Part shown: piece after piece, positions 20,801 to 62,271 of the stretch
Numbering within the stretch: position 1 is the stretch's first letter
Layout: the number at the start of each line of letters is the position of its first letter
DNA from: Halichondria panicea
Lineage: Eukaryota > Porifera > Demospongiae > Suberitida > Halichondriidae
Direction: 5' to 3'
Length of the DNA: 64,000 nt
Assembly (NCBI RefSeq): GCF_963675165.1
Contig: NC_087391.1
Span: forward strand, 4,700,646-4,764,645
The notes under the pieces: generated by a model
The model's input: the letters and a program-made list of their open reading frames with translations, nothing else
What the model was told of the DNA's origin: nothing
Databases searched by the model: none
Program-made: the position numbers and the translations under genes

Positions 20801-23800
20801 AACTGACAGCGCTGTTTGCCTAGTGAACTCGAGAGATGTTTCATTGCAATCATTTTGGTTGGACGGCATCTTGGCCTGGCTTGTAGTCGGCTCAGCAAAG
20901 AATGATATTGTCTTTTAAAACAATGCCAAGTAATATTACACATGTCAACTATGTGTATATATAATCGATGAGGCTACGCTTATAAGGTCGTTCACAATTG
21001 TTATATTTGTTACTTTAAACCATCACACCATTTTCACACGTGTACAAAAATGGTGATCGTTGGCCACCACTATAGTTGGGTGGTCTTAGGGTGTGGTGTA
21101 TTAATCCTAGGCGAGTGGAAACCGCAAAGCTCTGTTAGAATGCTACTGCAAGAGTCAATTTTGCATGCCACTAGCTCTAACTGACGTAGCGTGTTCCTGG
21201 ATCAAGGTTTGTCTGCTATTGTTGCATTTTGATTGACTAAGAGAATTACTAATGTCTATAATATTACACTACACTAGATTAAGCAAACATTTTTGAGTTG
21301 GCTTTCCTTACCTTCCTCAAAGCTTTTCTTTAGAGTAGCAGCAGCAATGATATCGGTGGTAGCAGGTACTAGGTAGCAAGTCACTAGTTGCTTTCTAAAG
21401 CTATTGTGTATGGATAGTTTGGCTGCAAAGACAAGCTCTGCCATTAGCAAATATTTTTTATAGTTCAGCCTCACTCAGCTGCAGCCGAGAGAATAATTAT
21501 TTTCACCAAAGACAATCTATGGAAACATCTACAGTACGACTATCAATTATGACTAATTATACCATGGAAACCATGGAAATGTTATTATAACACTATTTTA
21601 TTGCTGATTCAGCTATATTCGTGAGTGTTATATCAGATACCAACCCTATATATACTTAGAACATTTGGCATCAATCGTTTTTAACAACAATCATGGTCGA
21701 TCATTACCCACTATTTGAGTTTCCCTGGATTCTGCCTAAATTATTGCAAAAATGTTCATCATGATATAATAATGTGTATAAAAGCTTTGTGTTATGTAGC
21801 TTTGGCACCTCCACCGAGGCATCAGCACCTGTGATACTTGCAGTGCTTTTTTAATTCAATTTGCTACTCTGTACTACTGTTCACTCTAGGTACAACTATG
21901 CTGAGAGGGGAACTGAGGTAGTCAAGACAACCCTTCACTGGCACGCTCACGCTGTTGGGGACCTCTGCTTCACCACTGATGGTACGTAACTTCCAACTTC
22001 CAACCATAGCCCCTCATCACGAGTTTTGGTTTTAGTTTGGTTTGGTTTTCCAGTATTTTAAATCTTCATGTATCCTCACCTACAAGTATTGTATGTGATA
22101 GTCTCCATATGCGATAGCGCAGGAGTGCATAAATATTCATTTGTGACAGTCTCCTACATGTGATGCACTTGTAAGCTATGTATATATAGCATTGCCTGTG
22201 TCTAGAATTGTCTAGTTACTCACTTCCTTCTTTCATGTTCCCCCCACAGGCACGTATCTGGTCAGTGGTGGTGAGGAGGGTGTACTCGTCCTCTGGCAGC
22301 TGGACACACACAAGAGAGAGTTTCGTCCTCGTCTTGGCTCACCCATCACACACCTCGCCTGTAGCCCTGGTGACAAGTACTTCACTGTCGGTCTGCAAAG
22401 CAATGGTGAGCCCTGATCTGGGATGATTCCAATGCAGATACCATAGCGCCCCCATCCTTGTAGTTAGTTTTGGTGTCCAGATCTCAATTTCAGAGATTGT
22501 ATTTTGCTGCTCCTAGACACTGTAGCTCGTACTTATTATGTTGTCTTGCTAATTACCACTACCATGTACATATAGCTTTAGATATGTGATTGTGTGTTTG
22601 GTGTAGTGGCTTGTGTCCTTCATTTCATGGTAAATAGGGTGCTTCCCCCTTGCTTGTTAATGTACCAGTACCGTATAGCGGGTACATTTTTGTGAGGTGC
22701 AAAATTTCTAAGGACAGAGCAGTTAACGCGAAAATTAAAAGGGTAAACTCCCACGCACCGGTATGTCACATGCAAAGCTCTTGGTGGGTGTAGTTTCCTA
22801 GAATTGAATCGCAACCTACGAAACATTTTCCGCGGTACTTGAATAGTAGCTGGGCTAATAGAAGCTCAGTGTAATAAAAATTATAGTGAAATCCGGGTCT
22901 GTTTTCAATGCTGTGTGTTTGTGCATTATTAACTATCTGACCTTTGATTTCCAGTGGTGCAAGTGGTATCAGGACTGGACACTGAGGTGGAATGGACTAT
23001 CGGAGGACTGAGGAGGTCCCATACCCAGACTGTAGACCAGAATGGAATCAATACTGGCCTAGTGATATGTCCACGTTCCATGTCTATAGTGACCAACAGT
23101 ACGCCCGGGTTCATCCAGTTCTATGACCCAGTCAAGGAGTCCGTCACCCAACAAGTGAGTGTTTAAGTTAACGGTAGTACTGTACGTAACTGTATAATGA
23201 AATGTCTTCATATAATCATTTTAACCAGAAGTCCTACCATTATCTAAGCAAATCTTATGAGCAGTTCTTCTCTCACACACTAGTTGAATGTGACGGACCT
23301 GAACTACGTGTCTCGGCCTGATGACACACCCCTCTCTCTGACCACAGTAGACCACACCTCTTTCTCTCCTGACGGGGACTGGCTAGCAACAGTGAGTGAA
23401 TAGCTGTTACAATGTATGTGACTGAGAGTTTATATAATTATTGCTTGAAACAACAGTAAAAAAAAAAATCGCATTGCTACTAACTAATAATTATGTTCTA
23501 GGTTGAGAGCAGAGATGATGGTAAGACTGTCCCTGAGTTACGGATGAAGTTATGGCAGTACAGCTCCTCTCAACAAAGGTCAGGCTCACTTTTAGGTAGT
23601 CTCAGTGGAGAATTGGCTCTTGGTTCTGTATATTTGTCAATTTTTTGTTGTCTCGGTGCAGCGTTAATTTTCTTAACATGATCTGCAATGTTAGAGTCGT
23701 ATTCTTTTCGTTTACTTATAACGTCTTCAGGAATCACTTTTTTACGAGTTTCAAGACTTGGTACTGGTAGTTCATCGCACACTGCTATTGGTTCTAGTGT

Positions 23801-26800
23801 AAAGTTGACTCCCCTGTCTTTCATATTCCATTTCCAGTCAGCCAGTTGTTCTCTAATTGCTCCATCGCTTTGGGGTGGTTTTCCATAATACAGGTAGCCA
23901 ATGTGGAGCTTGTAGTGGACAGTAAGCTTAAGCCTCTCTTCCCAATCCACGAGCATGTCCAGTATGTTAGACTGACATTTTAAGCAAGGATTGCTGGTAG
24001 CCATCGTGGTGAGGCTTATTTCTGTTTGTCCAGTTAGATCCTTCATCGTCTCATCAAGCCATTTTTTCTGCTTCTTTATAGCAACTAGCTCAGCATGCTC
24101 ATGAGTTTGTTTGTTTGTTTCTGATTTACTTCGATATATCTCCCCACTCGGTTCCAATCTCACTTGATACACAACAACTATTGTTGAGCTGTCTCGTGGC
24201 TGAACTCTGTTGAAGCGACACACGTCGTGCGGCTCAAGCAGGTCACTGAGGTCGCCTAGTGTTCTTGCATCTATATTGTTGAAATAACTGTCAATATATA
24301 TTATACATTGTTTATTAAGCGTATACATTGTATGTGTGATTAGGAAACAAATAGAAAGCTTACCGTTTGTGCCAATATTAACCAAAACTACTCAGCTGAT
24401 CAAGTACATGTATTATTGGGTCTTTCAACTTTTGTGTGTGTTGTGTGTGTGTGCGTGGTCTATAGGAGAGTGATTTTACCGAGAAGTATGTATGTGAATA
24501 TCACACCTGGATACCGTAGCGCTGTGTTACAGGATATAGCCTCCATACAACAAGTTAATAGCGGCAGATTCGATGTTAAGGATTAATAAAAGCGAACAAA
24601 AGCTAGCTTGAAATTCCACTTTGGCTGCATGGCTAGCTATAGTTACACGGGGCTTTTATTCGAGGTACGTGTTTGTCACTGAAGTGATTCCGTACCAGGA
24701 ACAATGGACAAGGATCACTAAAGTAGAAAGCTAGAATTGTAGTTTGTGCCATAACATATCAGAAGCCATTATTTCTTTGCTGACTTTGCTGTGATCTTAG
24801 TCCATTGCACCACTAAAACTCAGTTCACAAAAGTTTCAGCATGCCTCTAGTCTCTTTCCTGTTACTTGCTGTTTAGTCAGCTTCCATGCTTATCATACTA
24901 CTGCATTTATTGCTGTGTCAACAGAATCCTTATAAGACCCAGATCTTGCATAATGTATGTGTTGTTGGTACTCATAACTTACCATTTGTGGCCATTGATA
25001 CCAAGTACTTGAAACTGCTCAGCTCTAAGTTTCAGTGGTCTTTCAACTGAAACTTGTGTGCGTGGTCTAGTGAGTAGTGATTTTATCTGAGAAGTGTGTA
25101 TGTCACTATCACATCACATGATTAAATGAATGTTGTGCCTTTCCACAATGTACAACTATGTCCAACAATATGATTGACTCCATAATTAATTATAGTACTG
25201 TCTGCTAGCTACATGTAGTTTATACATTATACTCTGCCAAATAATTATTGACACATATACAGTAATCATGATTGTATTTTATTGTCTCCCTCAGATACAC
25301 TCTGAACACTTGTGTGGAGCCACCTCACGATCGACCTGTCACCAGCATCACCTTCCAACCACGTCACCGTACCAACAAGACGTCCAATCAGATCCCTCTA
25401 TTGGTCTCTACGAGTCTAGATGGCCACTTCAAGACGTGGGTCCTCCTAGGAGAGGAAGTGGGTGTGTCATGGTCGTGTCAGGCAGTGGGTTACTACCATG
25501 GTCTGGAGAGTGTGGGGGCGTGCTTCAGTGAGGATGGGTCACTACTGGCTGTCAACTTCAAGACTGTGAGTGCATGAATAATATTGGTTGAGGTGCACAA
25601 ATATACCTAGAACTCATTACATTCAGTCTGATTGCAATCACAAACAGTATCACATGCACGTACCGAGCAATAGTTATATACCACACCTTGACAATAATTA
25701 TTCCTGGGGTATACCTCCCTAAAGGTAGCTTGCCCCCCCCCTCCATCCCCCTAGTAATTTTTTCTGTACTAAAGCTTCGTGTAGCTATGATTTGTGTGTG
25801 TGTGTGCTGTTTGTGATTACTGGTTGTCTCTATCCAATATGTTCAGTGTCTGACTCTGTGGGACCCAGTGAACTGTGAGCTGAGGAAGACTCTCTGCAAC
25901 CCTTTCAAGAGTGGAGACTATCGGTGAGCTAACAGTGCCACTGTAGTGTACACACATGGAGCTTTGGTGTACTTGTAAATTGTTTTCGTAAGTGTGTGAT
26001 GTTGGGTACCTTAATAAGCTAACCTTTGGTCTGTGCAAAGTACTGTCTCTTATTCAATCTCTTGTGCATGTGTTGAAGGCTAGCAGCTACTTGTTTCATG
26101 GATGTAAGCTCATTATTTGTTCCTCTTGTGTGTCTATAGGTGTATGGTGTTTGGTCATAAGAGCTCTTCCCAGTATCTCGTGACAGCCTCAGAGACTCAC
26201 CTCCAAGTCTGGGACCTCCTCTCTTGCTCAGGTGAGCACAGAGTGTGGTGATACAGTATCACTATAAGCTATGGTCTTATGTTTTAGTAGCTATCGTACG
26301 TTTAAGCTGTAAATACACTGTCCGTACATTTGCCAGCAAATATTGCCAAAGAATAGAAGACCTTGTGAGCATAATCTACCAAGGTCACATGTATGCATTC
26401 ATTCTTAGACCAGCTGTTATTGTGTGCTCTGTTGTTATTGAGTTTGTGTGCTTTCTTATCCAGTGCTGTGGTGTGTGAAGACCAGAGTGTGCTCCATGGT
26501 ATCTGATCCTCTGAGTCAACTCACAGCTGTGTTTGTGCCCTCAGGGAATGACCCATCATCCACACATTGTGAGTGCATGGCTGTGCGGCTGTGCATGTGA
26601 ACTCTCATCCATACCATGATAGGAGTTTTGACAAGTTTTGGTTTTTGTATAATAATAAATTATGGTCTCTTAGCTAGTATAGCTAGGCCTTGTACAATTG
26701 TGCAGTGATTTTCTCCTAGTCTCCAAGTTTCATGTGTTTCCTAACAAATCTCACCCAGTAGTCTGAGCTACATGTAATAACACTTGGAAATGGTCTTTAC

Positions 26801-27230: not shown

Positions 27231-28551
27231 GTGTTGTATGGCCTAGAGGAGGAAGGTAAAGAGAAGAGTGATGACTCTCGGCCGTTACTAGGGGACAATG
27301 TTCCCACGTCAGAGAGGGCATTCTGGGATATCTTTGGAGGCAGCAAACTACAAAACAGAGGTCAGTGTCAGTGTCAGTGTGTAGCTAATAGGCATTGCTT
27401 AGCCTCGATTCCAGGCCGCTTGAACAAGGCGGCCTGGTATACCTTGTATGCGCATGCGTGTACATTACCCCAAAAAGGGGGTAATCTGTGTATTTGTGGA
27501 TACTGTCAGTAAAATAAACCGTGTACTATTTGTATTCTGATTTTACAGTCCGTTACATAGAAGTATTGTGCAAAGATGACTGAGTTCTTACGCCCTTTAT
27601 TGTATCAAGCCAAGTCTCTACTTAACGACACCCTACACTGTAAGGCTACAGGAAAGGCATGATATGTTCCTGTGGGTCCCCTGATGAGGCTGTGGTAATA
27701 TAGACCAGGCAAGTGTTCTGCTACTAAATCTTGCCTTTATGTTCGACAAGAAGTCATTGCTGAAGATAAAGAAGCTAATTATTACTCCTGAAAGCTTTTA
27801 ATAAGCTTTAACTCGACACTCAGGAAGTTATTCACTCAAGATCTTCTGATGTATTAAAGAGTCCACCACTCTTCCTAGCTGGCAGCTCTAGCTGTCTGGG
27901 AGGCTTTCTTGAACTGTCTCTTTGATAAACAGAGCTAGAAGAAGCAACACTGCTGCAGCATAATTATTCTACTTTGATTAGTGTCTCTGAAAGCTGCCAT
28001 TGTGGTCACATTGTCATACGTATTATTCCCTTTTGTAACTTTGTCCGTTTTTTTACAATTTGTATGATGAAATTGTTGTCAATTATTTCGCGCATGCGCA
28101 TACAAGGTATACCAGGCCGCCTTGTTCAAGCGGTCTGGAATCGAGGCTAGGCATTGCTATGCATAACATATTATTATAGCGTTTTATTATGGCATTTATT
28201 TTACAATGTGCTACTCTTGCTACAGGTTCTACAGTACACCACAAGTTGAACAGCACGTCCAAACCATCACTCTCTCTACTCAGTGCCCCTCCCCACGTCC
28301 TCCCCCCAATGCCCTCCCTCTGTCTCCCGTTCCTCCAGTCACTGTTACCACATCGGCAGGGGTCTAAAGGTCACCTTGATGAAGACATGGTCGAGAGTGA
28401 GGTAGAAGGTTTGAGTTCAGAGGATGAAGGTCAGCCAGAAGTGGGTGTGGCCTCTAGTAAAGCTAACAATGTGATGGAAGTGGACATTGAGTGTAGAGAC
28501 TTGGAGGTCAAGAACTATGACTGGCTAGTAGAGCATTTCAGAATAATGTGA
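17885..28551 (+). CDS. WDR75: WDR75 (Utp17-type WD-repeat nucleolar protein), complete
   Basis: Nineteen exons with GT/AG borders: 17885-17979, 18039-18168, 18396-18461, 18527-18614, 18665-18810, 18877-18947, 19018-19110, 21890-21981, 22250-22405, 22955-23154, 23284-23391, 23502-23578, 25295-25565, 25847-25923, 26140-26231, 26464-26568, 26872-27008, 27231-27360, 28226-28551. They sum to 2460 nt (819 residues plus stop), close to human WDR75 at about 830. Landmarks are VYTTSLDGHLALWD (exon 3), GTYLVSGGEEGVLVLWQLDT (exon 9), LVSTSLDGHFKTWVL and CFSEDGSLLAVNF (exon 13), YLVTASETHLQVWDLLSC (exon 15), APPHVLPPMPSLCLPFLQSL and the C-terminal YDWLVEHF (exon 19). WDR75 is a nucleolar t-UTP component of the SSU processome, needed for pre-rRNA transcription and 18S processing. 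An in-frame stop precedes the ATG. Intron 7 holds a 7TM receptor gene, intron 12 a deaminase gene (both antisense), and intron 18 a transposable element. Confidence 0.93.
19612..19786. repeat. Left copy of direct repeat flanking the 7TM gene
   Basis: Contains GGCATCGATCGTTTTTAACA, AATCATGGTCGATTATTACC and ACACCTCCACTGAGGCATCA. A matching copy lies at 21660-21850 on the other side of the receptor gene, and a further one at about 49710-49890. The end CCTCCACCGAGGCATCAGCAC also occurs near 32920. It appears to be the right part of a mobile element whose left end (GCCTCGGTGCGCAT-like) is at about 19220 and 49352. Confidence 0.65.
19790..20869 (-). CDS. Orphan seven-transmembrane receptor (GPCR-like), single exon
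   Basis: 359 codons from an ATG at 20869. Seven hydrophobic segments fall at about 20-46, 53-79, 87-114, 134-157, 190-219, 232-258 and 265-293. The N-terminus is short with no signal peptide or large ectodomain. Cys87 at the start of TM3 and Cys168 in the second extracellular loop could form the usual disulfide. There is no clear DRY or NPxxY motif, so it is not a typical rhodopsin-class receptor; the layout is closer to divergent cAMP-receptor-like or secretin/adhesion-type 7TM cores. The about 65-residue cytoplasmic tail is rich in Thr/Ser/Pro and has clustered Tyr-Met-Asp repeats. It lies antisense in WDR75 intron 7, between two direct repeats. Ligand unknown. Confidence 0.75.
   Translation of the reverse strand: MPSNQNDCNETSLEFTRQTALSVGIPGVICLALSIVGLVAELVFVCKKKNNFLLRLFIYLSVAVTVAQVVQSLYLIIYFYPENGRLCAIIETIIYYPSMVEFFFIISVNCVLLYKVYSSVQRSCYHCHGSKSTEVLFVVVHFITPLFVVGLLMAIAGKPKYWQPSNECHIAYKSDEDCDRRLEFELLFKLIPEWIPVAIEIPLSILCICTLTVWCCWLLRKHFLRARMKTILKEIGLLLGFLSSYCIIRIVIEILNVFWYQNSAITIITYALYPINRVTIPFSFITYVCFVYLCPPRSDKDTNPRTDQDTHPPSTRISLPSNTVDHAPNFLSESTYMDSSYIYMDSDTGPTETTVLLIN
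21660..21850. repeat. Right copy of direct repeat flanking the 7TM gene
   Basis: Same sequence as the right part of the 19.2-19.8 kb element: GGCATCAATCGTTTTTAACA, AATCATGGTCGATCATTACC and CCTCCACCGAGGCATCAGCAC. It lies about 2 kb from the left copy in the same orientation. Confidence 0.65.
23570..24328 (-). CDS. AID/APOBEC-like deaminase, single domain (copy 1)
   Basis: A 252-codon frame from the ATG at 24328 if read without splicing. Zinc and catalytic residues are intact: H78-A-E80 and P114-C115-LK-C118, preceded by TMATSN (compare the SWS-PC of AID/APOBEC). A hydrophobic strand with a GYLYYG motif and a helix-strand unit ending NFTLEPI follow, matching the AID/APOBEC order. Deaminases of this group convert C to U in DNA or RNA, in immunity or editing; the target here is unknown. 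By comparison with the copy at 39474, the normal gene has a 13-nt first coding exon (MATN plus one base) and an intron ending at ...ATATAG before GCAAGAACAC. In this copy the exon-1 ATG (about 24376) has become ATT, so it may be start-lost or use the downstream ATG. It is antisense in WDR75 intron 12, and its TGA overlaps the last bases of WDR75 exon 12. Confidence 0.7.
   Translation of the reverse strand: MYTLNKQCIIYIDSYFNNIDARTLGDLSDLLEPHDVCRFNRVQPRDSSTIVVVYQVRLEPSGEIYRSKSETNKQTHEHAELVAIKKQKKWLDETMKDLTGQTEISLTTMATSNPCLKCQSNILDMLVDWEERLKLTVHYKLHIGYLYYGKPPQSDGAIREQLADWKWNMKDRGVNFTLEPIAVCDELPVPSLETRKKVIPEDVISKRKEYDSNIADHVKKINAAPRQQKIDKYTEPRANSPLRLPKSEPDLC
24975..25115 (-). pseudogene. Orphan exon 1 and promoter block of a deaminase gene
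   Basis: Contains the start exon ATGGCCACAAATG followed by a GTAAGT donor, as in the gene at 39474, and about 110 bp of conserved upstream sequence, but no matching exon 2 follows. The upstream block holds a perfect 9-bp inverted repeat, AAGTTTCAG-N11-CTGAAACTT. Interpreted as a 5' relic of a lost deaminase copy in WDR75 intron 12. Confidence 0.55.
26823..26871. repeat. Poly-C plus (CA)n tract ending in a splice acceptor
   Basis: A C run then a CA microsatellite ends directly in CACAG before WDR75 exon 17. The same arrangement occurs in the copies near 34877, 47480, 53180 and 58087. Confidence 0.85.
27173..27230. repeat. (TG)n tract ending in a splice acceptor
   Basis: A TG microsatellite abuts GCAG before WDR75 exon 18. 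Lengths differ among copies (29933, 35210, 58470); the copy at 47745 has almost none. Confidence 0.85.
27400..28149. mobile_element. Non-autonomous MULE-like element with 9-bp target duplication
   Basis: About 56-bp terminal inverted repeats (left TAGCCTCGATTCCAGGCC..., right ...GGTCTGGAATCGAGGCTA) enclose 750 bp with no coding capacity. It is flanked by GGCATTGCT at 27391-27399 and 28150-28158. Paralogous introns at about 35402 and 47916 carry a single GGCATTGCT and no insert, so the empty site is visible in this window. Long inverted repeats with a 9-bp duplication are typical of Mutator-like elements. It sits in WDR75 intron 18. Confidence 0.8.
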
Positions 28552-30903: not shown

Positions 30904-32625
30904 TTAATTAGTGTAAGAATAGCCAAACACGGTATTACCACTGTAGCAGGTGTGAGAATTGTAAGATCGTGAATAATTTGGACTGGGCAACCAGTAGGTC
31001 TCACTACTGGACATCGCATCATCAGCATTATTGTCAGAGTCATATACCCTTACTCGAAAGTAGCGCCAAGCACGATAACCAAAATTCAGTGACTGGTCCC
31101 AGTTTGGGTTATGGGTTCCCGACCTCACACTTGTGGTGAGCCGGCGAGAATTACCGAATCTGTCTACTGCAATGAACTCCATGTATGGGTCACTTTTGTT
31201 CAACCAGCCATCTTTATCGGGAAGATTACGTCCGTAACGAGCATTCACTAGCAGATTACCAGCTCGATATTCACAATTAGTTCCAGCATATCCTTGTCTG
31301 CAAGAACATCGATAGCTTGCACACTGGTCAATACACGTACCACCATTTCGGCAGCGATTGGGAATGCAATCATTAATATCCCTAATCAATTTGTAGTCAT
31401 AGTAAAGGTATCCACTATCATACGCATTATGCTTTTGGCTGTATTGGTTTCCAAGGCTCATTAAGATCAACTCTTTATTCGACATCTTATCATCTCTAAA
31501 AATATCATCATCCCAAACTTGCATCTCGAAGTTTTTCCATTTCTGGCAGCCAAAGTTAAGCCACTGATTCCAAGTTGGATTTGTTGTTCCTGGTATGTCT
31601 CGAGTAGATTGAGTCACCACATAACCACTGGACCTTCTTGCTTGAACTCTCACATAGGGATCTGGGTCATTTAGCCATGGGTCTGTGTCTCTAAGATTTC
31701 GAGCATACCGAATATATACTTGTAGGTTCATTGTATAGCAGGCATAAAGCAGATTTGCTTGCTTTATATCTTCAGTACTTAATTGTATTCTTTGTCCTAT
31801 GTCAGGTGTGCCTTGTCGGTTGTACTCAGCTTGGTTTTTAACCGAAATGGTTGTACAACCAGAGCAATTTGGTTTTTTAAAGTATGTTTCACCGTAATGC
31901 ATAATCGATCCATAGTCGTAAATGGAGCCAAATGAGTGAATTTCGTTGACTTCCCTACTCATGAATTGATAATGTGCTTTGTTGCTCTCAATAATATTAT
32001 CCCAGTGTATTGTTACATATTGGCCTCTATCAGGTCGGCTCTGTTCGTGCCAAAAACCAATTGCATGGCCAATCTCATGAACAATAATACCGAAACTTTC
32101 ACATCCTCCGGACTCTAAGTTAATCTCTTGCTTTCCGCCCTTTCTTCCGATACTCGTTGAGTGGCATCCTTCACTAGTGTTGACAAATTCAATATAGTCT
32201 CCCGAATTAGCAATCTCAAATCTCAAGCAGGTATGATGTTCCCAGTGATTTATCGCCCGTCTGATAACTTCAACAGTTGCAGTTGACTCTGAGATGTGAT
32301 CTGAAATTCTATATCGTACAATACCATTAGCCCATAGTTTAATCGCTCCTTCCCTTCCGACCCCACGTCGCTCAATACGTTTTAAGGAATTAGATCCATC
32401 AACAAACAAATTCCGAAGCTTCTCTCCACCAGGAACACTGCTAAAGTTGTAATGGTCCAAGATAAATTCTTTTGAGAGTTTCAAATCACCTTCAAATAAT
32501 CCATTTTTCATCCAGTCGGTTATGTTTATAGGGACGGCATCAGTGTTGTTTTTTAGCGGTACAACTGCAGGTGCAGCCAAAGTAATACTGATCAAACACA
32601 AGCACACAGAGATTTGTGATATCAT
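30904..32625 (-). CDS. Secreted astacin metalloprotease with C2-like and EGF modules
   Basis: 573 codons, one exon, from the ATG at 32625, chosen because it opens a signal peptide (residues 1-20, hydrophobic then APA). A propeptide has FEGDLKLS (45-52), the astacin aspartate-switch region, and a basic site RIERRG (83-88). The catalytic domain (about 88-298) has HEIGHAIGFWHE (183-194) with three zinc His and the catalytic Glu, and the Met-turn SIMHY (240-244). Next come a C2-like module (299-413, with RNLRDTDPWLNDPDPYV), a six-Cys EGF module (418-452) and a second C2-like module (457-573, with LPDKDGWLNKSDPYM). Astacins cut matrix, growth-factor or food proteins outside the cell. C2-like modules are usually calcium/lipid binding and unusual here. 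The gene lies antisense between WDR75 copies with no other link to them. Confidence 0.9.
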   Translation of the reverse strand: MISQISVCLCLISITLAAPAVVPLKNNTDAVPINITDWMKNGLFEGDLKLSKEFILDHYNFSSVPGGEKLRNLFVDGSNSLKRIERRGVGREGAIKLWANGIVRYRISDHISESTATVEVIRRAINHWEHHTCLRFEIANSGDYIEFVNTSEGCHSTSIGRKGGKQEINLESGGCESFGIIVHEIGHAIGFWHEQSRPDRGQYVTIHWDNIIESNKAHYQFMSREVNEIHSFGSIYDYGSIMHYGETYFKKPNCSGCTTISVKNQAEYNRQGTPDIGQRIQLSTEDIKQANLLYACYTMNLQVYIRYARNLRDTDPWLNDPDPYVRVQARRSSGYVVTQSTRDIPGTTNPTWNQWLNFGCQKWKNFEMQVWDDDIFRDDKMSNKELILMSLGNQYSQKHNAYDSGYLYYDYKLIRDINDCIPNRCRNGGTCIDQCASYRCSCRQGYAGTNCEYRAGNLLVNARYGRNLPDKDGWLNKSDPYMEFIAVDRFGNSRRLTTSVRSGTHNPNWDQSLNFGYRAWRYFRVRVYDSDNNADDAMSSSETYWLPSPNYSRSYNSHTCYSGNTVFGYSYTN

Positions 32626-32629
32626 TTTT

Positions 32630-33368
32630 GCTCTTGTCAATTTTGCTGGTCTGAAATCACTGACTTTCCCTTTTTGTATGATAATATACACAACATCCTT
32701 TGTGGTCAATGATTACAGGTAGCATGCATGACCTTGGTCGGCTTTTGGCTTCTGCTTGCACACTCCACCATTGAAACAGAAGGGAGCAAAGTTTGCATAT
32801 GTTTGATGCACAAAACATTCTAGTAATACGGTAACAGGTCATGGTCGATCCATTTTGCACCTGTATACATGATTATATAATCTATGTGCATGCATGTCAA
32901 TGTTGAATTGTACTAGTTCCTCCACCGAGGCATGAGTATACCCGCGGTGCTTCATTTTTATCATTTTTATAAGACAGGCTCTATAATTATACAGATACAA
33001 GGGGTTCAATACCGTCTTTCTGCATGTGCTTAAATTGATATGTGTGGCGCACAAATAGAAGCTACTCTTTCTATAGTGTCACTAAGCATTGTTAGTACTA
33101 CTATAGTATAGAGAGCTATAATCATTTGCGTATGTTATAGCTGAGCTATATAGAATAGCTAATTTTCTCTGTTTTTCTCCGTGCACGCACATTCTTCATT
33201 ATAAGTCATGACCAACCTCCTCTGGGTTTTTATGTCAACAGCCGAGGGTTGTACTTTAGTGCTCTAGTTTGCATGTACATGTATAGTGTTGAAAACTAAT
33301 TTGTTGATACATATACTTACATTAATCGATGATAATCATGATAGTGTGTATTTTATTGTCTACCTCAG
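32630..33368. other. Upstream region of astacin gene, no gene seen
   Basis: Contains an element end (CCTCCACCGAGGCAT near 32922) and a repeat (CAACAGCCGAGGGTTG near 33238) shared with 43430. No exon until WDR75 exon 13 at 33369. Confidence 0.4.
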
Positions 33369-36018: not shown

Positions 36019-37452
36019 CTAATTGTTTCGCAAAAATAAGATGCATGTGCTTGTATTTGTATTACATGTCACAATCCTTACCAGGTTGTAAAACGCAAAT
36101 TTTGCTATATAACTTGGCTTATTCGAAAAAGTAAAACTACCACACAATATTGTTATACGGATCATAACTAAACTATAAAGCAAGGAAATTCGCATGCGGG
36201 CAAACCATCTCACTTGTTCTACAAATTTTCTCAGTGATAATTTAATATTAATCAATCTGACATTTTCTGCTGCATCAATGTCATATTGTGGCCTTTGTAT
36301 AAGCTTAGCAAGCTTCCACTGTTCTTGCTCTGCTTGTGAAGCATGTCGTTTGCAATAAACCATGCCTAGTTCCGCTGTTACACTGATTGGGTGGAGTTCT
36401 ACTATGATCCCTGCTCGGTCAAGCTCAAACAACGAGTCGACAGTAGCCTTTTCATAACGAATGTTAGCTACACGTAATACGAGTCTTGGCTTAAGCTTGT
36501 AAAGAGTAGAAGTGATTGTTGCTAAACAGCTTGGGCATGGCAAGTGCGTCACAGCTAATACAATAGTCTCACTCCATATAGTCCAACTCTCTGGTTTTTA
36601 CTAAGTTTCTTATCTAGCTAGATCTATCCGATGTTTGATATCTGGTATTGTTTGACAACATTCTTCACCATGCTTTTCAATCGGTTTTAAAACTTTTCCC
36701 TTAACCCTACCTACTGTATTCACAGCGTTTATTTGCACTTGTGCCACTGCCACATAGTACACAGCTTTTGATTCGTAGCTACTTTCGTAGAATGCTCGCT
36801 CTTCTCTAGCTTGCAGTTCGGTTTTCACTTCCATCAACGTGGTGAAGAGCCACCTCGAATTCACTGGTCCTTGAGCAATAGTTTGTTTAACTTTCCAGAC
36901 TATATAATCTATTCTTATGTCTTTATTTTCTCTCTTCTCCGTAATATCATACCGCCTAACATCATTACACATGTAGTTACATATTTCAGTGACAACTAAA
37001 ATTGGCTGGAGGAAGCATCTTAAATTCAAATGACAAAGCCAAAATGCCAAATCTTCAATATTTTCATCTTCACCTCCCCCATCTCCGAAGTACAGATTTG
37101 CTATGCGTAGTATGAATGTAACTGTTGCTCCTCTTCTTGTTAGAGACTCGAGGAAATCTTCCAAATCTTCTCTACACGTGAAGCATGGGCTCTTTGAGAG
37201 ATTGATAGTGATTTCAATATTGACTCCTTGTAATAGTATCTGTCTCATGCGTGGAATAGCTTTAGCTTTTTTGATGAAAAGAATCTCAGCATGGATTCCT
37301 TCACTCACTGTTGGGATAGCAAGAGTCCTATCCCCATCTATGACAACAACACTAAATGTTACAGTTTTGCTATCACTAAATAGCATTCCTCCACAGAATA
37401 TTTTCTGGAAGCGTTCTTGGAGCAATGCCAGATCTCCTAGATGTGCTGCCAT
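36019..37452 (-). pseudogene. Double-domain AID/APOBEC-like deaminase, broken in the linker
   Basis: Begins with ATG at 37452 (MAAHLGDLALLQERF). The first deaminase domain is intact: HAE in GIHAEILF, then SPCFTC and LRIANLYFG. The second domain begins with HGE (EKHGEECC), but three in-frame stops (TAA, TAG, TAA) follow within six codons at about 36598-36616, before KPESW. After them the frame stays open through PCPSC and LRVANI to a stop at 36019. The frame is kept, so only nonsense changes separate the halves. It is either a pseudogene or a gene now making only the first domain (about 280 residues). Closest relative in the window is the intact copy at 54013. It lies antisense between WDR75 copies. 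Confidence 0.75.
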
Positions 37453-37878
37453 CACCTTCTTTAGATACTTTTTGTGAATTGAGTCTGCAAAAGGTCATGG
37501 TCATGGGTTGTGGTCGTGGTTATCCTATCTGGCACAAACTGAAACCATACATAGCGGAAATAAACAGTGTGGCTTAGTGAGTCAGCGCACGTTATCCCAA
37601 TCTGATCAAGCTTATTGTCTTGTTGCCTATGTATTCCACAATTAGCCTCCTTATAGGTACTTATAGCTAATTACCCCGTGCATGCGCAGCGCCAGCAGGG
37701 TAGAGTGATTGGTGTGTGTGTGTGTGAGTGATTGGTGTGTGATTGGTGTGTGCGTGTGTGCGTGCGTGTGACAGTGTGGACACAAAGATGAGCTGTTTGA
37801 GCGAACTAGATATTTCATGGACTGCTTTAACTGCTATTATGAGACGTACCTAATGGACCCCCCCCACTCTACATGTAG

Positions 37879-39482
37879 GTATGCTGAGAGGGTATTGAGG
37901 TAGTCACTGGCATGCTCACGCTGTTCGGGACCTCTGCTTCACCACTGATGGTAAATCTCCAATCCTTAACTGGGTTTTGGTTTTGTTTTCCAATAATCTT
38001 CATGTATCTCTCACCTACACCAGTAACATAGTGTGCAAATGTGATAGTCTCTAATCACAAGCTAAGTATAGCTTATCGCCTCTGTCTAGAATTGTCTAGT
38101 TGCTCACTTTTTTCTTTCATGTCCCCCCCCCCCCCCCAGGCACGTATCTGGTCAGTGGTGGTGAGGAGGGTGTACTCGTCCTCTGGCAGCTGGACACACA
38201 CAAGAGAGAGTTTCGTCCTCGTCTAGGCTCACCCATCACACACCTCGCCTGTAGCCCTGGTGACAAGTACTTCACTGTCGGTCTGCAAAGCAATGGTGAG
38301 CCCTCAGGGATGATTCCACTGGATACCATAGCCCCCCATCCTTGTAGCTGGTTTGGTGTCCAATTCCAGAGATTGTGTTTTGCTGCTCTACTTCCTAGAC
38401 ACTGTAACTTATTATTGTTGTCTTGCTAAACCACTACCATTTTACTTTGCACATGTACATATAGCTTTAGGTGCTTTGAGTAAATATGTGAGTGTGTGTT
38501 TGGTGTGTGTTATGGCTTGTGTCCTTCATGTCATGGTAAATAGGGTGCTTCCCCCTTGCTTGTTAATGTACCAGTACCGTATAAGTGGGGACATTTTCGT
38601 GATGTGTAAAATTTCACGTTTTTCGCGGGCAGGGCAGTTAACACGAAAATTAAAACTGGGATAAACTCCCACGCATCGGTATTTCACATGCAAAGCTCTT
38701 GGTAGGTGTGGTTTCCTGGCATTGAAACGGAAATATTACCTCACCCACAAACATGTCTGCTGAGGGAGCCAAGTAGAGCAAAAATTTGTTCCCGCAAAAA
38801 TCGGTACTTGAATATTAGCTGCTAACAAATAAATTAGTCAAATCCGGTTCTGTTTTCAATGCTGTGTGTTTATGCATTATTAACTATCTGACCGTTGATT
38901 TCCAGTGGTGCAAGTGGTATCAGGACTGGACACTGAGGTGGAATGGACTATCGGAGGACTAAGGAGGTGCCATACCCAGACTGTAGACCAGAATGGAATC
39001 AATACTGGCCTAGTGATCTGTCCACGTTCCATGTCTATAGTGACCAACAGTACGCCCGGGTTCATCCAGTTCTATGACCCAGTCAAGGAGTCAGTTATAC
39101 CCAACAAGTGTGAGTGTTTCAGTAGTGTGTACTGTATAGCTGTAATGGAAATGTCTTCTTTTAACAATTTATTATATCTGGATTCTCACACGCACACACA
39201 CACTAGTTGAATGTGACGGACCTGAACTACGTGTCTCGGCCTCTCTCTGACCACAGTTGATCACACCTCTTTCTCTCCTGATGGGGACTGGCTAGCCACA
39301 GTAAGTGGATTAGAGGGGGGAGCTGTTATGTGTGACTGAGAAATTTTCCTCCCCACAGTAAAAAAAATCACGTTGCTAAACAATGTATTATTAATTATGT
39401 TCTAGGTTGAGAGCAGAGATGATAGTAAGACTGTCCCTGAGTTACGGATGAAGCTATGGCAGTACAGTTCCTCTCAACAAAG
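37879..39482 (+). pseudogene. WDR75 partial copy, exons 8-12, broken
   Basis: Exon-8-like 37879-37950 has internal deletions; exon 9 38140-38295 is intact; exon 10 starts at 38906 and has an indel near its end (GTTATACCC); exon 11 39207-39300 lacks 14 bp after CTCGGCC; exon 12 is 39406-39482. The changes shift frame. It continues, after a 6.5-kb intron-12 equivalent filled with deaminase genes and elements, into exon 13 at 46052. Confidence 0.8.
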
Positions 39483-40322
39483 GTCAGGCTCACTTTTAGG
39501 TAGTCTCAGTGGAGAATTGGCTCTTGGTTCTGTATATTTGTCAATTTTTTGTTGTTTCGGTGCAGCGTTAATTTTCTTAACATGATCTGCAATGTTAGAG
39601 TCGTATACTTTTCGTTTACATATTACGTCTTCAGGAATCACTTGACGAGTTTCAAGACTTAGTTCTGGTAGTTCATCGCACACTGCTATTGGTTCTAGTG
39701 TAAAGTTGACTCCGCTGTCGTTCATATTCCATTTCCAGTCAGCCAGCTGTTCTCTAACTGCTCTATCGCTTTTGGGTGGTTTTCCATGATACAGGTAGCT
39801 AATGCGGAGCGTGTAGTTGACCGTAAGCTTAAGCCTCTCTCTGCAGTCCACGAGCATCTTGAGTATTGCAGACTGACATTCCGAACAAGGACTGCTGGTA
39901 GCCATTGTGGCGAGGCTGATTTCTGTTTGCTCTGTTAGATCTCTCCCATCTAGCCAGGCTGATATTTTTCTTATAGCAGCTAGCTCAGTATGCTCTGTGG
40001 TTGTTTCTGATCTATCTGAATGGATTTCCCCACTTGGTTTCAGTGTCACTTGGCTTACAGCTACTATTCTTGAGCTGTCTTGGTTTTGAACTCTATAGAA
40101 GCGATTCCTGTCTTGCGGCTCGAGCAGGTCAATTAAGTCGCGTAGTGTTTCTGTTTTAGTAGCTGTTTCTGTAGCTGTATTAATGGTTGGAATAGTTGTC
40201 AATCACTTTTATACAGTATTATGTATGATAATATGTTTACTATAATAATGGCTTAATTATACAAGAGGTTAGCAAACAAATAGAATGTTTAAAATAGCTT
40301 AAAAGTTACCATTTGTGGCCAT
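39474..40322 (-). CDS. AID/APOBEC-like deaminase, single domain (copy 2), two exons
   Basis: Predicted exons are 40310-40322 (ATGGCCACAAATG, 13 nt, donor GTAACT) and 39474-40174 (acceptor ...TTAATACAG), giving 237 residues. The splice joins in frame to read MATNATETATK. Active site: H66-T-E68 and P100-C101-SE-C104, preceded by TMATSS. Then comes LRISYLYHG, comparable to the RI-x-x-LY segment of AID/APOBEC proteins, and a final strand NFTLEPIAV. HTE replaces the more common HAE/HVE but keeps zinc His and catalytic Glu. The tail after about residue 180 is basic and polar. Neither a signal peptide nor a membrane segment is seen, so a nuclear or cytosolic protein is likely. Its stop codon overlaps WDR75-like exon 12 on the other strand, exactly as in copy 1. 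Best-preserved member of this subfamily. Confidence 0.72.
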
Positions 40323-44219: not shown

Positions 44220-45457
44220 CTATGAAGACATCTCTTCATCTGAGTCTGGCAAAGATAGCTGCGGTGATTGCGTTTCACTGAGAGGAGGAGACATTCTGGA
44301 CTCTAGTTCTCTTTTTAGAGTCTGGAATTCAGTTTTCAATATGACGTATCAATCAATTATTTGTCCTGAGAAGGATGGCAACGGAGCATAGAAAGGTTGT
44401 AGGCAGACATGGATTAAATTTCCTCTTAGACGCTCTATCCACTCAATGAAACTGTCTCTTTCTTCGCCTACAGGAACTTTGGCGATATATAGGACCAGTT
44501 TGTTGTTCACTCCATAAAGCTTTTTTTCTCCCAGGAACTTCGTAATCCTCTCTTGGCATTTGATGGAGGGCACGTGTGCACATACCAGTATGATACACTT
44601 TCTGATAGATCCCCACGACAAGGGAATTCTAGTTTTAATTTCGTGTAATAGATGATCTCCATCTCCATCTAGTTTTTTTGAATATATAATCTCTGTTGGT
44701 CGTTTCTCATCCATCGTAACAGCTGAGACTATGAGCCGGAGTAGTATCATTTGTTTATCACTTTCGTCTATAAAGTATGTTCGTGTCAAACCTGACCACA
44801 CCAATTTGAAGTGTTTAATCAAATTCGTCACATGTGTAGTCCCGTTTTGAATGTTATCAATTTGTCGGTTAATTCTCGTATCTTCGTCTATTCTGGTGCT
44901 CCTTTGTTCCTCAGTTATCTTCACCTTTCTTGTTAGCATAGCTATTTCTGAAATGACATTGATGGCACTCAAATAGACTCTAATTTTTCGCACTTCGAGG
45001 TCTTTTATCCAGTAATCTAACTTTCTTTCTGCTTCATTAGGTTTAGACTTTTCTAAATACAATCGTGCTATCCTTAAAGTGAAATGAACGGGTACACGAC
45101 ATGAAATGAACAATGCTTGCAAGTCTTCTCGACATTTAGAGCACGGACTATCAACATTGTAACAGATACAGCTTCTGGTGTGTATATTCGACTATTTCTT
45201 TGCAATCCTTCGTTTGCTTTTTTACAAAATAGTTGTTCTGCATGAAGCTGAGGGTTAGATGTTTTTACAAAGTTTATTAGTATAGGTTCCGTCCGTCCCT
45301 GTACTCTCAGTTCAAATTTACACATGACTCCAGTTTTACTTCGTGGATCGTAGAAACACTCCAATGCTTGATCGAAGCATAGCTCTTCTTCAAAATCTTT
45401 TAGCCTCGGGCTAGGAGTCAACTCATTGTGGTCTGTGGTAATGTATGCTTCAGCCAT
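44220..45457 (-). pseudogene. Double-domain deaminase of the third subfamily, frameshifted
   Basis: Starts at ATG 45457 (MAEAYITTDHNELT). The first domain has H72-A-E74 in QLHAEQLF, but a one-base frame change at about 45156-45161 follows residue 100; the shifted frame then reads NVDSPCSKCRED and FTLRIARLYLE and stays open to a TGA at 44349. The same frame continues past this TGA for about 42 codons (LKTEFQTLKRELESRM ... SDEEMSS) to TAG at 44220, so the end may also be truncated. The second domain is degenerate: the His/Glu region is GDHLLHE and the Cys motif is PSIKC, missing the first Cys. A sequencing error at the frameshift cannot be excluded; otherwise a recent pseudogene. Confidence 0.7.
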
Positions 45458-48990: not shown

Positions 48991-49349
48991 ATCTAGAATT
49001 ATCTAGTTGCTCACTTCATTCTTTCATGTTCTCCCCCCCACAGGTACGTATCTGGTCAGTGGTGGTGAGGAGGGTGTACTCGTCCTCTGGCAGCTGGACA
49101 CACACAAGAGAGAGTTTCGTCCTCGTCTAGGCTCACCCATCACACACCTCGCCTGTAGCCCTGGTGACAAGTACTTCACTGTTGGTCTGCAAAGCAATGG
49201 TGAGCCCTCAGGGGATACCATAGTCCCCCATCCTTGTGGTGGGTTTGGTGTGAGTCACTGTCCAGTAATCTTAAAATCGTTGTGCTCAGAATATTCGATT
49301 TTCAGAGATTATGTTTGCTTCTACAGCACTCGTGCAAATGTATTTATGC

Positions 49350-54012: not shown

Positions 54013-55347
54013 TTAAGATATGCAGATGCATCTTAATCGTTCGCATTCTTCCTCAATTACTCTCTCTTCAATTATTCTCTCTGATAGTTCATTATTAATC
54101 AATCTGACATTTTCTACTGCGGCAACATCTGATTGTTGCCTATTTTGCTTAGCACTACTCCACTCTCGCTGCTTAGCAATCCTCCACTGTTGTTGCTTTT
54201 CAATCGTCCACTGTCGTTGCTCTGCTTGTAGTACTAGTATGCAATTAACTTGGCCTAGTTCCACCATTACTCGGATTGCGTGGAGTTGTATTGTGATTCC
54301 TGCTTGGTAACGCTCAAACAGCCGGTCGACAGTAACCTTTTCATAAGGAACGTTAGCTACACGTAATATGAGTGTAATCTCGTTGGTGATTCTTACTAAG
54401 CAGTCATTGCATGGGAAGTGTGTCACAGCTAATGCAATAGTCGAACTCTGTGTACTCCAACTCTCCGGTTTTACAAATTGATTTATCTCAGTATTTATCT
54501 CAGTTTCGATATCTGGTATTGTATGACAACATCCTTCACCATGCTTTTCAAACGCTTTTAAAACTTTTTCCTTACTCCTACCTACTGTATTTACAGCGTT
54601 TATTTGCACTTGTGCCACTGCCACATACACATTGCTTGTTGCACAACTACTTTCGATGAATGTTCTCTTAAGTTCCGCAGGTTTCAGTGTTTCTTTCACT
54701 TCCGTCAAAGTGGTAAATAGCGGCCTAATATTCACTGGTGTTTGAGCAATAGCTCGTTCATCAACTGTGGCCACTATTTTATCTACTATAGCATATATTA
54801 TCGTGTCTTTGTCTCTTCTCTTCCCCTGTATTTGTTCCCACTCATCAATACTGACTCTTCGAGGACTATAATCAGGCATTTCAGTGACAACCGAAATGTT
54901 CTGAATACCAAGGTGATCCACTATTTTTTCTCTGTTTAAATGATAAAGCCAAGATGCCAAATCTTCAATAATTTCATCTTTACCTCCCCCATCTCCGCAG
55001 TACAGATTTGCTATGCGGAGTGTAAATGAAACCGTTGCTCCTCTTTTTGTTAGAGACTCGAGGAAATCTTCCAAATCTTCTCTACATGTGAAGCATGGGC
55101 TCTTTGAGAGATTGATAGTGATTTTAATATTGTCTTGTATCTCTTCCAGTAGATTAGCTTGTCTGATGAAACCAATCTCAGCATGGATTCCTCTATTGCT
55201 CACTGTTGTGATAAAAGAAGTCGGACCTCCGTTGATGACGACAACACTAAATGCTACAGTTGATTGCTCACTAAATGGCACTCCTCCCCAGAATATTTTC
55301 TGGAAGCGTTCTTGGAGCGATGCCAAATCTCCTAGAGGTACTGCCAT
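54013..55347 (-). CDS. Double-domain AID/APOBEC-like deaminase, intact
   Basis: 444 codons, single exon, ATG at 55347. First domain: H55-A-E57 (RGIHAEIGF), then S83-P84-C85-FT-C88 and LRIANLYCG (110-118), a helix and a strand NISVVTEM. Second domain: H269-G-E271 (KHGEGCC), P312-C313-ND-C316, LRVANVPYE and a strand ITIQLHAIRV. Both domains keep zinc and catalytic residues. The C-terminus (about 375-440) is a Gln/Trp/Glu-rich helix, probably a coiled coil. Two-domain layout recalls tandem-domain APOBEC3 proteins, but is probably an independent duplication. Likely C-to-U deaminase of DNA or RNA; an immune or anti-transposon role is inference from the family. It is antisense between two WDR75 copies, with GTG just before the ATG. 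Ordered but distant, so the exact family within the deaminases is not certain. Confidence 0.78.
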   Translation of the reverse strand: MAVPLGDLASLQERFQKIFWGGVPFSEQSTVAFSVVVINGGPTSFITTVSNRGIHAEIGFIRQANLLEEIQDNIKITINLSKSPCFTCREDLEDFLESLTKRGATVSFTLRIANLYCGDGGGKDEIIEDLASWLYHLNREKIVDHLGIQNISVVTEMPDYSPRRVSIDEWEQIQGKRRDKDTIIYAIVDKIVATVDERAIAQTPVNIRPLFTTLTEVKETLKPAELKRTFIESSCATSNVYVAVAQVQINAVNTVGRSKEKVLKAFEKHGEGCCHTIPDIETEINTEINQFVKPESWSTQSSTIALAVTHFPCNDCLVRITNEITLILRVANVPYEKVTVDRLFERYQAGITIQLHAIRVMVELGQVNCILVLQAEQRQWTIEKQQQWRIAKQREWSSAKQNRQQSDVAAVENVRLINNELSERIIEERVIEEECERLRCICIS

Positions 55348-55585: not shown

Positions 55586-55625
55586 TTACCCCGTGCATGC
55601 GCAGCGCCAGCAGGGTAGAGTGATT

Positions 55626-55685
<60 letters not shown>

Positions 55686-55969
55686 TGTGTGCATGTGTGT
55701 GCATGTGTGTGTGTGTGCGTGTGTGTGTGTGTGTTTCGAATAAACACTTGTTCTGCATGAAGTTCAGGACTAGATGTTTCTACAAATGTTATTGTTGTAG
55801 GTTTATTATGTACTGTCAGTTCTAATTCACACACAAGTCCAGTTTTACCTCGTTTATCCCAGAAACACTTTATAAAGGCTGGATCAAAGCTGTCAATCTC
55901 TTTAAAGTCTTTTAGCCTCAGGCTAGTGGTCAACTCATCGTGGTCTGTGGTTATATATCCTTCAGCCAT
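55586..55969 (-). pseudogene. Third-subfamily deaminase, truncated by microsatellite
   Basis: Starts at ATG 55969 (MAEGYITTDHDELTTSLRLK), parallel to the gene at 45457, and keeps HAE (PELHAEQVF). At about 55738 it runs into a (TG)n/(TGCG)n microsatellite read as Thr-His repeats and loses the PCxxC half. Upstream of the gene at 37452, the same microsatellite context (CAGCAGGGTAGAGTGATTGG) occurs with the deaminase part absent, which marks a shared breakpoint. Confidence 0.7.
55624..55735. repeat. (TG)n/(TGCG)n microsatellite
   Basis: About 110 bp of TG with CGTG interruptions. A shorter relative is at 37708-37770. Confidence 0.9.
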
Positions 55970-58095: not shown

Positions 58096-58133
<38 letters not shown>

Positions 58134-59069: not shown

Positions 59070-59766
59070 TATTCGATATTTTTTGTGAACCAAGCATTCT
59101 TGACAATACCAGGAGCAGATTACAGAACCTCTTAACAATACATGTACACAATACATGTACATGTATATGCACGGCTACACTACAGGTAATTTCTGGAATC
59201 AAAACATTTGTGGTTGAGCAATTAGTTCGTGGTAATAATTTCGTGGTTATGCACTGCAATGATGATTGCTTCATTCGTGGGTAAAATGTTTGTGTTCCTG
59301 TATTTAACCACGAAAATTACTTTTAACATCTGCATTGTTACGTAATTAGCTGGAAGCCCCACCCACGATGACAGAGGTCATGGAAGGGTTGGGCCATTAG
59401 TGAAGGAGACCTTCACCCAGCCCAAGCCCAGCACTAATCACGACTAGAGCCTAGTCGGTGAAGTTGAACAAACCAAATACCAAAAAAGAACAACCACAGG
59501 GGACCGGGCGGGTGGGAAAAAAGATAATGTCTTTTGTAATGTTTGATTAGTCATTGTTTTCCTAAGTGTGTGGTGTTGAGTACCTTTAGCTAACCTTCAA
59601 TTTATGCAAGTATTCAAACTCATGTGCATAATTATGTTGAAGGCTAGGAGCTACTTATTTCATGGATGCATGTAAGCTCATTACCTTAAGGTCACAGGTA
59701 CATTTGTCTGTATTTTTGCTGTGGTATTAAATTCTGCTAAATTTTGCTCAAGTTGTTTGTCTATAG
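59070..59766. repeat. Duplicate of the WDR75 3' flank (28552-29254)
   Basis: Near-identical to 28552-29254 over about 700 bp apart from a few small gaps. No gene seen in it. Confidence 0.8.
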
Positions 59767-60835: not shown

Positions 60836-61062
60836 AAACCTTGAATAAATGACAATATACCACATAATTGTACATTAATTGTACATGTATTTGGCTTAAT
60901 TGATTCCATGTGTTTCATACTCTGAGATGTGGGATGGTATATATAATTATGATACATAACCTAGTGTAGCATGCAGAGCTATAACACAGTTACTGATTGA
61001 TACATTGAAAGTATAATAAGTCTAAATCATTATAAATTGTGTTATAGTCAGGATTGTTCGAC

Positions 61063-62271
61063 TTAGTCGTCCAAAAGGATCCCGGCAAACCGCTTCCACT
61101 CTTCGTCAAATATTCTCTTCTTTATAATTAGTGCATCATTAATCTTTCGGACATTTTCTACTACCTTATCATCTAATTGTCGCCTTCGTTCAATAGCATT
61201 CCTCCTCTGTTGTGCTTGTGAAGAATTTTGTTTGCAATTAACTGTACCTACTTCCTCTATTACTCTGACTGGCTGAAGTTGTACTGTCATTTTATTTAGG
61301 TGAAGCTCATATAGCCAGTCGACAACAATATTACGATCATAAGGAATGTTAGCTACACGTAATATGAGTAGATCTATTTCTTCAAAATCGCTGGTGATTT
61401 TTGCTAAGCAGTCATCGCATGGAAAGTCTGTCACAGTTAATGTAGTATTCCTACTCCGTATATTCCACGATTCGGGCACTTTCAATTCCGATATCGATTG
61501 TATGATTTTTGATATTGTAGCACAGCATTGTACATGTTGTTGACCAATATCATTGCCCTGCTCTTGCCTAATTTTGAAAGCTTTAAACTTGTCCCTTTTT
61601 GACATATTTTCAGCGTATATTTCTACCCGTGCCACTGCCACATACACAGCCGGACTTTCGTATAATTTTCGCTTTATTTCTGGGGCTATTTCTGCCAAAT
61701 CAGTAGAGAGCTTTAACATTTTTTGATTAATTTTCCAAACTATGTGCATTATTTGGTCATCTTTCGTTTTTCTATATTCAAACATATTTCGCGTGTAACT
61801 AATATTATGAGGTACTTCGTTGGTAGCCAAAATGGGCTCAAGATCACAGGTTTCCACTATGTCTTCGCCTTTCAAAAGACTAAGCCAAGAGGCCAATTCT
61901 TCAACAGTATTGTCTTTACCTCCCTCTTCTCTACTGTAAAGATCTGCTATGCGTAGTGTAAATGAAATGTTTGCTCCAGCATATGTTAGAAGCTGAAAGC
62001 AATCTTCCAAAATTTCTCTACACACGAAACATGGGCTCCTTGAGATCAACAGATTGATAGTGACTTTAAATTGATCTTGTGTTAAGTTCAGTGATTTGAT
62101 GTAGTATTTTAATTCATAGATGAAAATCCTCTCAGCATGATATCCGTTACCACTTCTCGTATAAAATTCCTCCGTGTTCCCATCGATGGTTACTACACCA
62201 AGTGCTACAGTTGTATGTTTATGAGATTCTTCATCGTACAAATGTGTATAAAATTGAACTATTTTTTCCAT
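61063..62271 (-). CDS. Double-domain AID/APOBEC-like deaminase, second site altered
   Basis: 402 codons, single exon, ATG at 62271. First domain: H45-A-E47 (GYHAERIF), P80-C81-FV-C84 and LRIADLYSR (106-114), complete for catalysis. Second domain: H246-V-Q248 (QQHVQCC) where the copy at 54013 has HGE, so the catalytic Glu appears to be Gln; P284-C285-DD-C288 and LRVANIPYD remain. The second domain probably still binds zinc but should be weak or inactive, as in some two-domain APOBEC3 proteins, where one domain serves nucleic-acid binding. Most diverged of the double-domain copies here. The C-terminus is a charged helix (QQRRNAIERRRQLDD...). Antisense, between WDR75 fragments. Confidence 0.77.
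   Translation of the reverse strand: MEKIVQFYTHLYDEESHKHTTVALGVVTIDGNTEEFYTRSGNGYHAERIFIYELKYYIKSLNLTQDQFKVTINLLISRSPCFVCREILEDCFQLLTYAGANISFTLRIADLYSREEGGKDNTVEELASWLSLLKGEDIVETCDLEPILATNEVPHNISYTRNMFEYRKTKDDQIMHIVWKINQKMLKLSTDLAEIAPEIKRKLYESPAVYVAVARVEIYAENMSKRDKFKAFKIRQEQGNDIGQQHVQCCATISKIIQSISELKVPESWNIRSRNTTLTVTDFPCDDCLAKITSDFEEIDLLILRVANIPYDRNIVVDWLYELHLNKMTVQLQPVRVIEEVGTVNCKQNSSQAQQRRNAIERRRQLDDKVVENVRKINDALIIKKRIFDEEWKRFAGILLDD

Follow-up and report, generated by a model that had tools for sequence, protein, structure and literature searches.

Introduction

AID/APOBEC-like deaminases (AADs) have reportedly been found across animals, secreted members included, in a 2018 study by Krishnan that reviews cite. 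In APOBEC3G, the first domain is non-catalytic and the second is catalytic. Among other expanded families, deaminase activity has been measured for AID-like proteins of sea urchin and brachiopod, with one urchin copy increasing in response to bacterial challenge (PMC5956068); the lamprey CDA1L1 expansion likewise has measured activity, and copies of it restrict herpes simplex virus 1 (PMC8962628). Two reviews record one clade, SNAD4, in sponges and describe it as a sponge clade of secreted AADs (PMC8201067, PMC11004436). Here, we describe a tandem array of AAD genes in the sponge Halichondria panicea, whose genome of 131.5 Mb is assembled in 39 contigs. The array begins in a window of 64,000 nucleotides (C15:4700646-4764645, where C15 is contig NC_087391.1) and is nested in copies of the housekeeping gene WDR75; array positions below are window coordinates, carried on past the window's end.

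The array resembles the urchin, brachiopod and lamprey systems in being an expanded AAD family. However, the V5-tagged urchin proteins, at 22.3-24.6 kD, are of single-domain size (PMC5956068), unlike classes A and B of the array, which have two domains, and the accessible sections on the three families mention no nesting in WDR75 (PMC5956068, PMC8962628). With APOBEC3G and the mammalian APOBEC3 cluster, the array shares a tandem multigene arrangement and two deaminase domains, one of them non-catalytic, and APOBEC3G is its best structural match, yet the array proteins have their catalytic domain first rather than second, and their dead domain itself lacks the catalytic Glu and is followed by a long C-terminal helix (class A) or a Ser/Glu-rich tail (class B). 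Array members score best or near-best against the Pfam model of SNAD4 and share its HxE-PCxxC motifs, but the gene models examined, with predicted starts, have no signal peptide, and classes A and B again differ in being two-domain proteins. In the accessible parts of the literature we searched, which did not include the text of Krishnan 2018, no two-domain deaminase array of this kind appears outside vertebrates, and those of three further papers (PMC8195603, PMC13428168, PMC7916673) contain nothing on sponge deaminases. A preliminary description of the window had called the family undescribed, which was too strong, given that metazoan AADs are known and that both reviews place SNAD4 in sponges. 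The enzyme family is thus already known, and what looks new is the pairing of two domains in which the live one comes first, together with the nesting in WDR75.

Results and Discussion

An intact deaminase core in the front domain

We compared the array proteins (locus names begin with the class, A to D) with Pfam models of AADs. Five of nine open reading frames (ORFs) from the seven deaminase loci in the window exceeded the cut-off of at least one model (SNAD4, NAD1, APOBEC_N and others), as did five of five further proteins on C15 and four of five on contig C13; the rest of the nine were a piece of B44 (25.7 against 27 bits), B55 (11.3 bits) and two pieces with no AAD match. SNAD4 (PF18750) was the best model for several members, and NAD1 (PF18778) was also over its cut-off, scoring better for A36 and A61 and nearly the same for B66 (47.5 and 47.6 bits for the SNAD4 and NAD1 models, respectively). 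Since the two scores are almost equal in places, Pfam is not decisive for the clade, and we do not claim membership in NAD1, for which one review gives fishes, coelacanth, amphibians, lizards and marsupials (PMC8201067). Unlike mammalian APOBEC3, every scanned protein fell below the cut-off of the APOBEC3 model PF18771, the best reaching 26.0 against 27 bits.

Searching the whole genome, we found 23 matches to the NAD1 profile, all over the cut-off (19 on C15 and 4 on C13), and 25 to SNAD4 (21 on C15 and 4 on C13), 22 of them over the cut-off; the search scores the best candidates only, and the restriction to two clusters holds at the thresholds used. Among 14 prokaryote genomes that served as controls, none contained a NAD1 match, and seven contained SNAD4 matches, none over the cut-off. 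Given that all matches are confined to two clusters and that the controls stay below the cut-off, the array signal is not attributable to chance. The second cluster (C13:3447363-3456775; L021, L022, L027) comprises five ORFs, three of which have a strongly hydrophobic, membrane-anchor-like segment near the N-terminus and one of which has Asp at the position of the zinc-binding His.

Across 14 aligned rows picked among the deaminase ORFs, H55, P84, C85 and C88 are invariant (in the frame-broken B44 piece, the His matches by chance), as are the Leu and Tyr of the next strand, and E57 is present in at least 90% of rows. That strand, which follows PCxxC, reads LRIxxLY in A36, A54, A61 and C39, LHIGYLY in C23, LKIARLY in B66 and LRFAYIY in D135, and the open front domains retain both HxE and PCxxC. 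The front domain has the fold of a zinc deaminase and retains both His-x-Glu and Pro-Cys-x-x-Cys, and it would be expected to deaminate cytosine in single-stranded DNA or RNA. We regard both the array itself and its assignment to the AAD family as solid.

We modeled the structure of A54, an open class A gene encoding 444 aa (54013..55347, minus strand), whose HAE motif lies at residues 55-57 and PCFTC at 84-88. By sequence, its top matches in the PDB are APOBEC3G entries (E 0.00066). The AlphaFold2 model built from the 14-row alignment (predicted local distance difference test [pLDDT] 82.5, predicted template modeling score [pTM] 0.75) contains a pair of strand-helix deaminase units, with a long helix at the C-terminus (residues 382-443). 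In a Foldseek search of the PDB with this model, ranks 1-16 were all full-length APOBEC3G (E 8.0e-14 to 2.5e-11), and the later ranks among the 50 matches listed were mostly single APOBEC3 domains and AID. The AAD fold is confirmed on this one class A model. For class B, the model of B66 is weak (pLDDT 54.8, pTM 0.40), with a fair front domain, the same order of elements and APOBEC3G at Foldseek ranks 1-16, and we treat its match as supportive only. The preliminary description had noted HxE, PCxxC and an LRI-x-x-LY-like strand in the first domains and placed the genes with AID/APOBEC proteins; the motifs hold, with C23 as a variant, and the profiles and the A54 model both fall inside the AID/APOBEC deaminase fold.

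A degenerate deaminase domain behind it

Class C proteins have one domain, and in classes A and B a front domain is followed by a back domain that is homologous to it but lacks the catalytic Glu. Single-pair hhalign comparisons, built on few sequences, match the back to the front domains with E 9.7e-10 (A) and 8.5e-7 (B), and the A back domain to the B back domain with E 3.1e-8. The back domains form one clade (99/99) in a tree of front and back domains, which carries a long-branch warning. They had not been recognized as degenerate deaminases when the motifs of the first domains were noted.

The class A back domain carries C-C-x-T-[I/L] and PCxxC in seven of seven copies (in A54, C-x-T at residues 274-276 and PCNDC at 312-316), and in the aligned rows of class B, Pro-Ser-x-x-Cys replaces PCxxC. 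Because C-C-x-T lies at the head of a helix in the A54 model, the second Cys probably stands for the zinc-binding His and the Thr for the catalytic Glu.

Extent and turnover of the array

The deaminase array comprises 23 loci (genes, partial genes and relics) between 23573 and 161293, a span of 137.7 kb, all on the minus strand: seven of class A, eight of class B, seven of class C and one further single-domain gene, class D. The order C, B, A repeats along the plus coordinate, with gaps. The preliminary description had set the cluster at 23570..62271, which is correct in position but not in extent, since the array continues about 97 kb past the window edge, to approximately C15:4,861,938. Its account of three subfamilies and their relics on the minus strand, opposite WDR75 segments on the plus strand, and of rapid gain and loss within one locus is borne out by classes A, B and C at the seven window loci, by the WDR75 exons identified below and by the mixture of intact, broken and partial copies with mosaic identity.

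Approximately 12 copies have an open catalytic domain and a modeled start (A54, A61, A92, A121, B66, B102, B115, C39, C100, C112, C129 and D135), C100 and C112 having ends in different frames. Of the seven loci inside the window, all on the minus strand, three are apparently intact: A54, C39 and the class A gene A61 (61063..62271, 402 aa; NAD1 37.1 bits, SNAD4 32.8 bits). The ORF of C39 (39477-40202; SNAD4 30.6 bits) illustrates the class C gene model, in which a short exon 1 encoding, for example, Met-Ala-Thr-Asn is followed by a GT donor and an intron of about 60-135 bases, with the AG acceptor joining exon 2 in frame. In C39, the predicted exon 1 has 13 nt (40310..40322), with the ATG and GT donor found in several copies, and the predicted exon 2, under this splice model, runs to the stop codon (39474..40174). 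C23 (23573..24391; SNAD4 29.1 bits against a cut-off of 27) is open, and comparison of exon 1 places an ATT at 24376 where its sister genes have ATG. Class A and B starts were set at a shared Met, and all starts are inferred from sequence.

The other three window loci are relics. A36 (36022..37494) has an open front part (36613-37452) and the remainder of a back domain, with three in-frame stops between the two; B44 (44352..45457) is frame-broken between HxE and PCxxC; and the class B fragment B55 (55589..55969) runs into a CA/GT repeat (55627-55734) directly after its HAE helix.

Comparison of repeat units revealed mosaic identity. In one pair of 11 kb units, the inner 8 kb is about 99.7% identical and the edges differ by 2-15%. 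In another, the 4 kb between a B and an A gene is about 99.5% identical, most of the coding sequence of both genes differs by 7-13%, and the transitions differ by 2-3%. The ORFs of B102 and B115 differ at 0 of 1515 nt. Duplication or conversion of segments whose breakpoints fall inside deaminase genes or at their borders would account for this mosaic, and selection on the coding parts could be an added cause. As judged from these comparisons, the array evolves by birth-and-death, with tandem duplication and the exchange of segments creating and eliminating copies.

Nesting in WDR75

The plus-strand exons were identified as WDR75 by Pfam and also by human WDR75 in 7mq8. The 5' coding segment, from the first beta-propeller (18010..18168), occurs once in the 183 kb read; the exon ending the first propeller (22249..22404) has eight array copies, some broken (others at 38139-38294, 49043-49198, 64505-64660 and elsewhere); an exon of the second propeller (25296..25559) has 11 copies by protein search, all in the array; and the last coding exon (28225..28539) has many, several of them broken. 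C23 lies antisense in the intron between the exons at 22249 and 25296, in the sole copy that bears the 5' segment, and other array units contain partial exon sets. A WDR75 profile gave one further weak match over the cut-off (C15:11114-11515, 27.3 bits), and the first-propeller profile also matches other WD-repeat genes. The starting point of the array was probably a class C gene lying antisense within the WDR75 intron, with the 3' exons copied along.

The exon copies are 92-99.7% identical, splice sites included, and sit amid flanks that range from near-identical to approximately 50% alike, the latter in many pairs; nearby class C genes (C23, C39 and C129) have a silent-site divergence (dS) of 0.21-0.34. 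Among four copies of the exon at 22249, all 15 pairwise differences fall at third codon positions, a count that leaves out the copy at 128303, because of an indel shift, and three of the eight copies. In a gapped alignment of all eight, two more copies are third-position-like and those at 98588 and 111319 are not, and two other WDR75 exons have no clear third-position bias. Gene conversion or a hidden function could maintain the exon copies. Copying driven by complementary DNA was rejected as a simple explanation, since the similarity extends, by eye, about 50-70 bases beyond the splice sites.

Other genes lie in and near the array. An open ORF within it (30904-32712, minus strand) encodes an astacin metalloprotease with C2 and EGF domains (Pfam), ORFs at 152732-164931 are astacin-like by eye and copies of one another, and an IRF-2BP1/2-like zinc-finger protein is encoded at the window edge (1-801, minus strand). 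Elsewhere in the genome, a search for mitochondrial COX1 yielded a single nuclear fragment interrupted by two in-frame TGA codons.

A proposed role in defense and its alternatives

We think that the array is probably a host cluster of intracellular cytidine deaminases, evolved independently, that would work like the APOBEC3 locus, and we reason that its role may be antiviral or anti-retroelement defense. The front domain would act on its single-stranded substrate, and the dead back domain would direct the enzyme to its target by binding nucleic acid or ribonucleoprotein or by driving self-assembly, a role akin to the one played by the non-catalytic first domain in APOBEC3G. In class A, the back domain, with its long helix behind it, may still bind zinc through three Cys. 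If the targets are retroelements or viruses, this would explain both the turnover of copies and why sequence outside the active-site core is weakly constrained. A narrower version of this proposal, which we hold only tentatively, is that of an APOBEC3G-like system evolved independently outside vertebrates, with a live front domain, a dead but still zinc-binding targeting domain and copies recombined segment by segment.

Plausible targets exist in the genome. At least 150 matches to RT_RNaseH_2 (for example, L028-L057) were found genome-wide, many in open frames of more than 1000 codons, and several of the retroelement pairs compared are about 99% alike, indicating a young population of long terminal repeat retroelements. 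We looked for hypermutation among the best 30 of 150 matches, which gave 52 pairs with at least 800 columns, 42 of them at 80-99.9% identity.

Several results weigh against a defense role of this kind. The 42 pairs, from the 30 best-scoring and least damaged loci, have no excess of G/A mismatches (180, versus 203 C/T), and no run of more than three same-direction transitions of either type occurs in the pairs; since damaged copies are missing from the best 30 of 150, this test is small, biased and weak. With low TM-scores of 0.24-0.32 for the A54 query against full-length APOBEC3G, the way that protein arranges its domains is not matched, and the relative placement of the two domains is different or unsure. 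In addition, 11 of the 23 copies, about half, are frame-broken, partial or start-less, and the interval of the ratio of nonsynonymous to synonymous substitution (dN/dS), estimated by the Nei-Gojobori method with bootstrap, includes 1 in 7 of 11 pairs, which also fits relaxed constraint.

The last two results also favor an alternative that we consider unlikely but worth weighing, namely, that the array is largely decaying, with one or two deaminases performing modest housekeeping editing of RNA or DNA and the rest having arisen incidentally through unequal crossing-over in the WDR75 region, without any role in defense. WDR75 fragments carried along, some of them with stops, fit this picture as well. 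However, the dozen or so copies with an open catalytic domain keep HxE and PCxxC, the class A back-domain motifs are retained in every copy, and constraint is evident in some pairs: the upper bootstrap bound is below 1 in 4 of 11 (A54/A92, 0.63; B66/B115, 0.58; C23/C129, 0.54; C39/C129, 0.51), C23/C39 being less clear (0.63, upper bound 1.02). The most constrained stretches are the PCxxC helix and beta-4 in A54/A121, A54/A36N and A54/A92, but not in A54/A61, and other class A stretches range from about 0.6 to well above 1. This pattern fits diversifying selection around a fixed core; it fits relaxed constraint too.

Secretion was considered because of the name of SNAD4, whose model is the top Pfam hit for several members and which the reviews assign to secreted AADs (PMC8201067, PMC11004436). 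Under this alternative, the array would encode SNAD-type proteins directed against extracellular microbes or parasites, as the literature proposes for SNADs. We found no signal peptide in the array gene models examined, using inferred starts and a simple hydropathy test. Seven predicted N-termini of classes A, B and D (A54, A61, A92, A121, B66, B115 and D135) have no hydrophobic stretch, with a maximum mean hydropathy of 1.39 over 15 residues, versus 2.55-3.35 in the three membrane-anchor-like ORFs of the C13 cluster, and the class C models, which start Met-Ala-Thr-Asn or similar, have no hydrophobic N-terminus either. Given that the starts are predictions, an upstream exon could still encode a signal peptide, but we judge secretion to be quite improbable. 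Finally, we give very little credence to the notion that the deaminases act, AID-like, on their own array and trigger gene conversion by which segments of deaminase and WDR75 sequence are reshuffled, since in a tandem array non-allelic gene conversion of the ordinary kind would suffice, without deamination, for the breakpoints within deaminase genes or at their borders, the identity of B102 and B115 and the conserved WDR75 exons amid diverged flanks that might suggest it.

If the proposal of an intracellular defense cluster is right, two-domain deaminases that restrict retroelements by mutating them evolved independently outside vertebrates, and if the narrower, APOBEC3G-like version is true, the two-domain design of restriction factors has at least two origins and was not invented by mammals alone. 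Because the live and dead domains stand in mirrored order, the role of the dead domain would become testable by comparison with APOBEC3G, and a genome of 131 Mb in which close, open paralogues lie alongside many long-ORF retroelements makes the idea of an arms race directly testable in this sponge.

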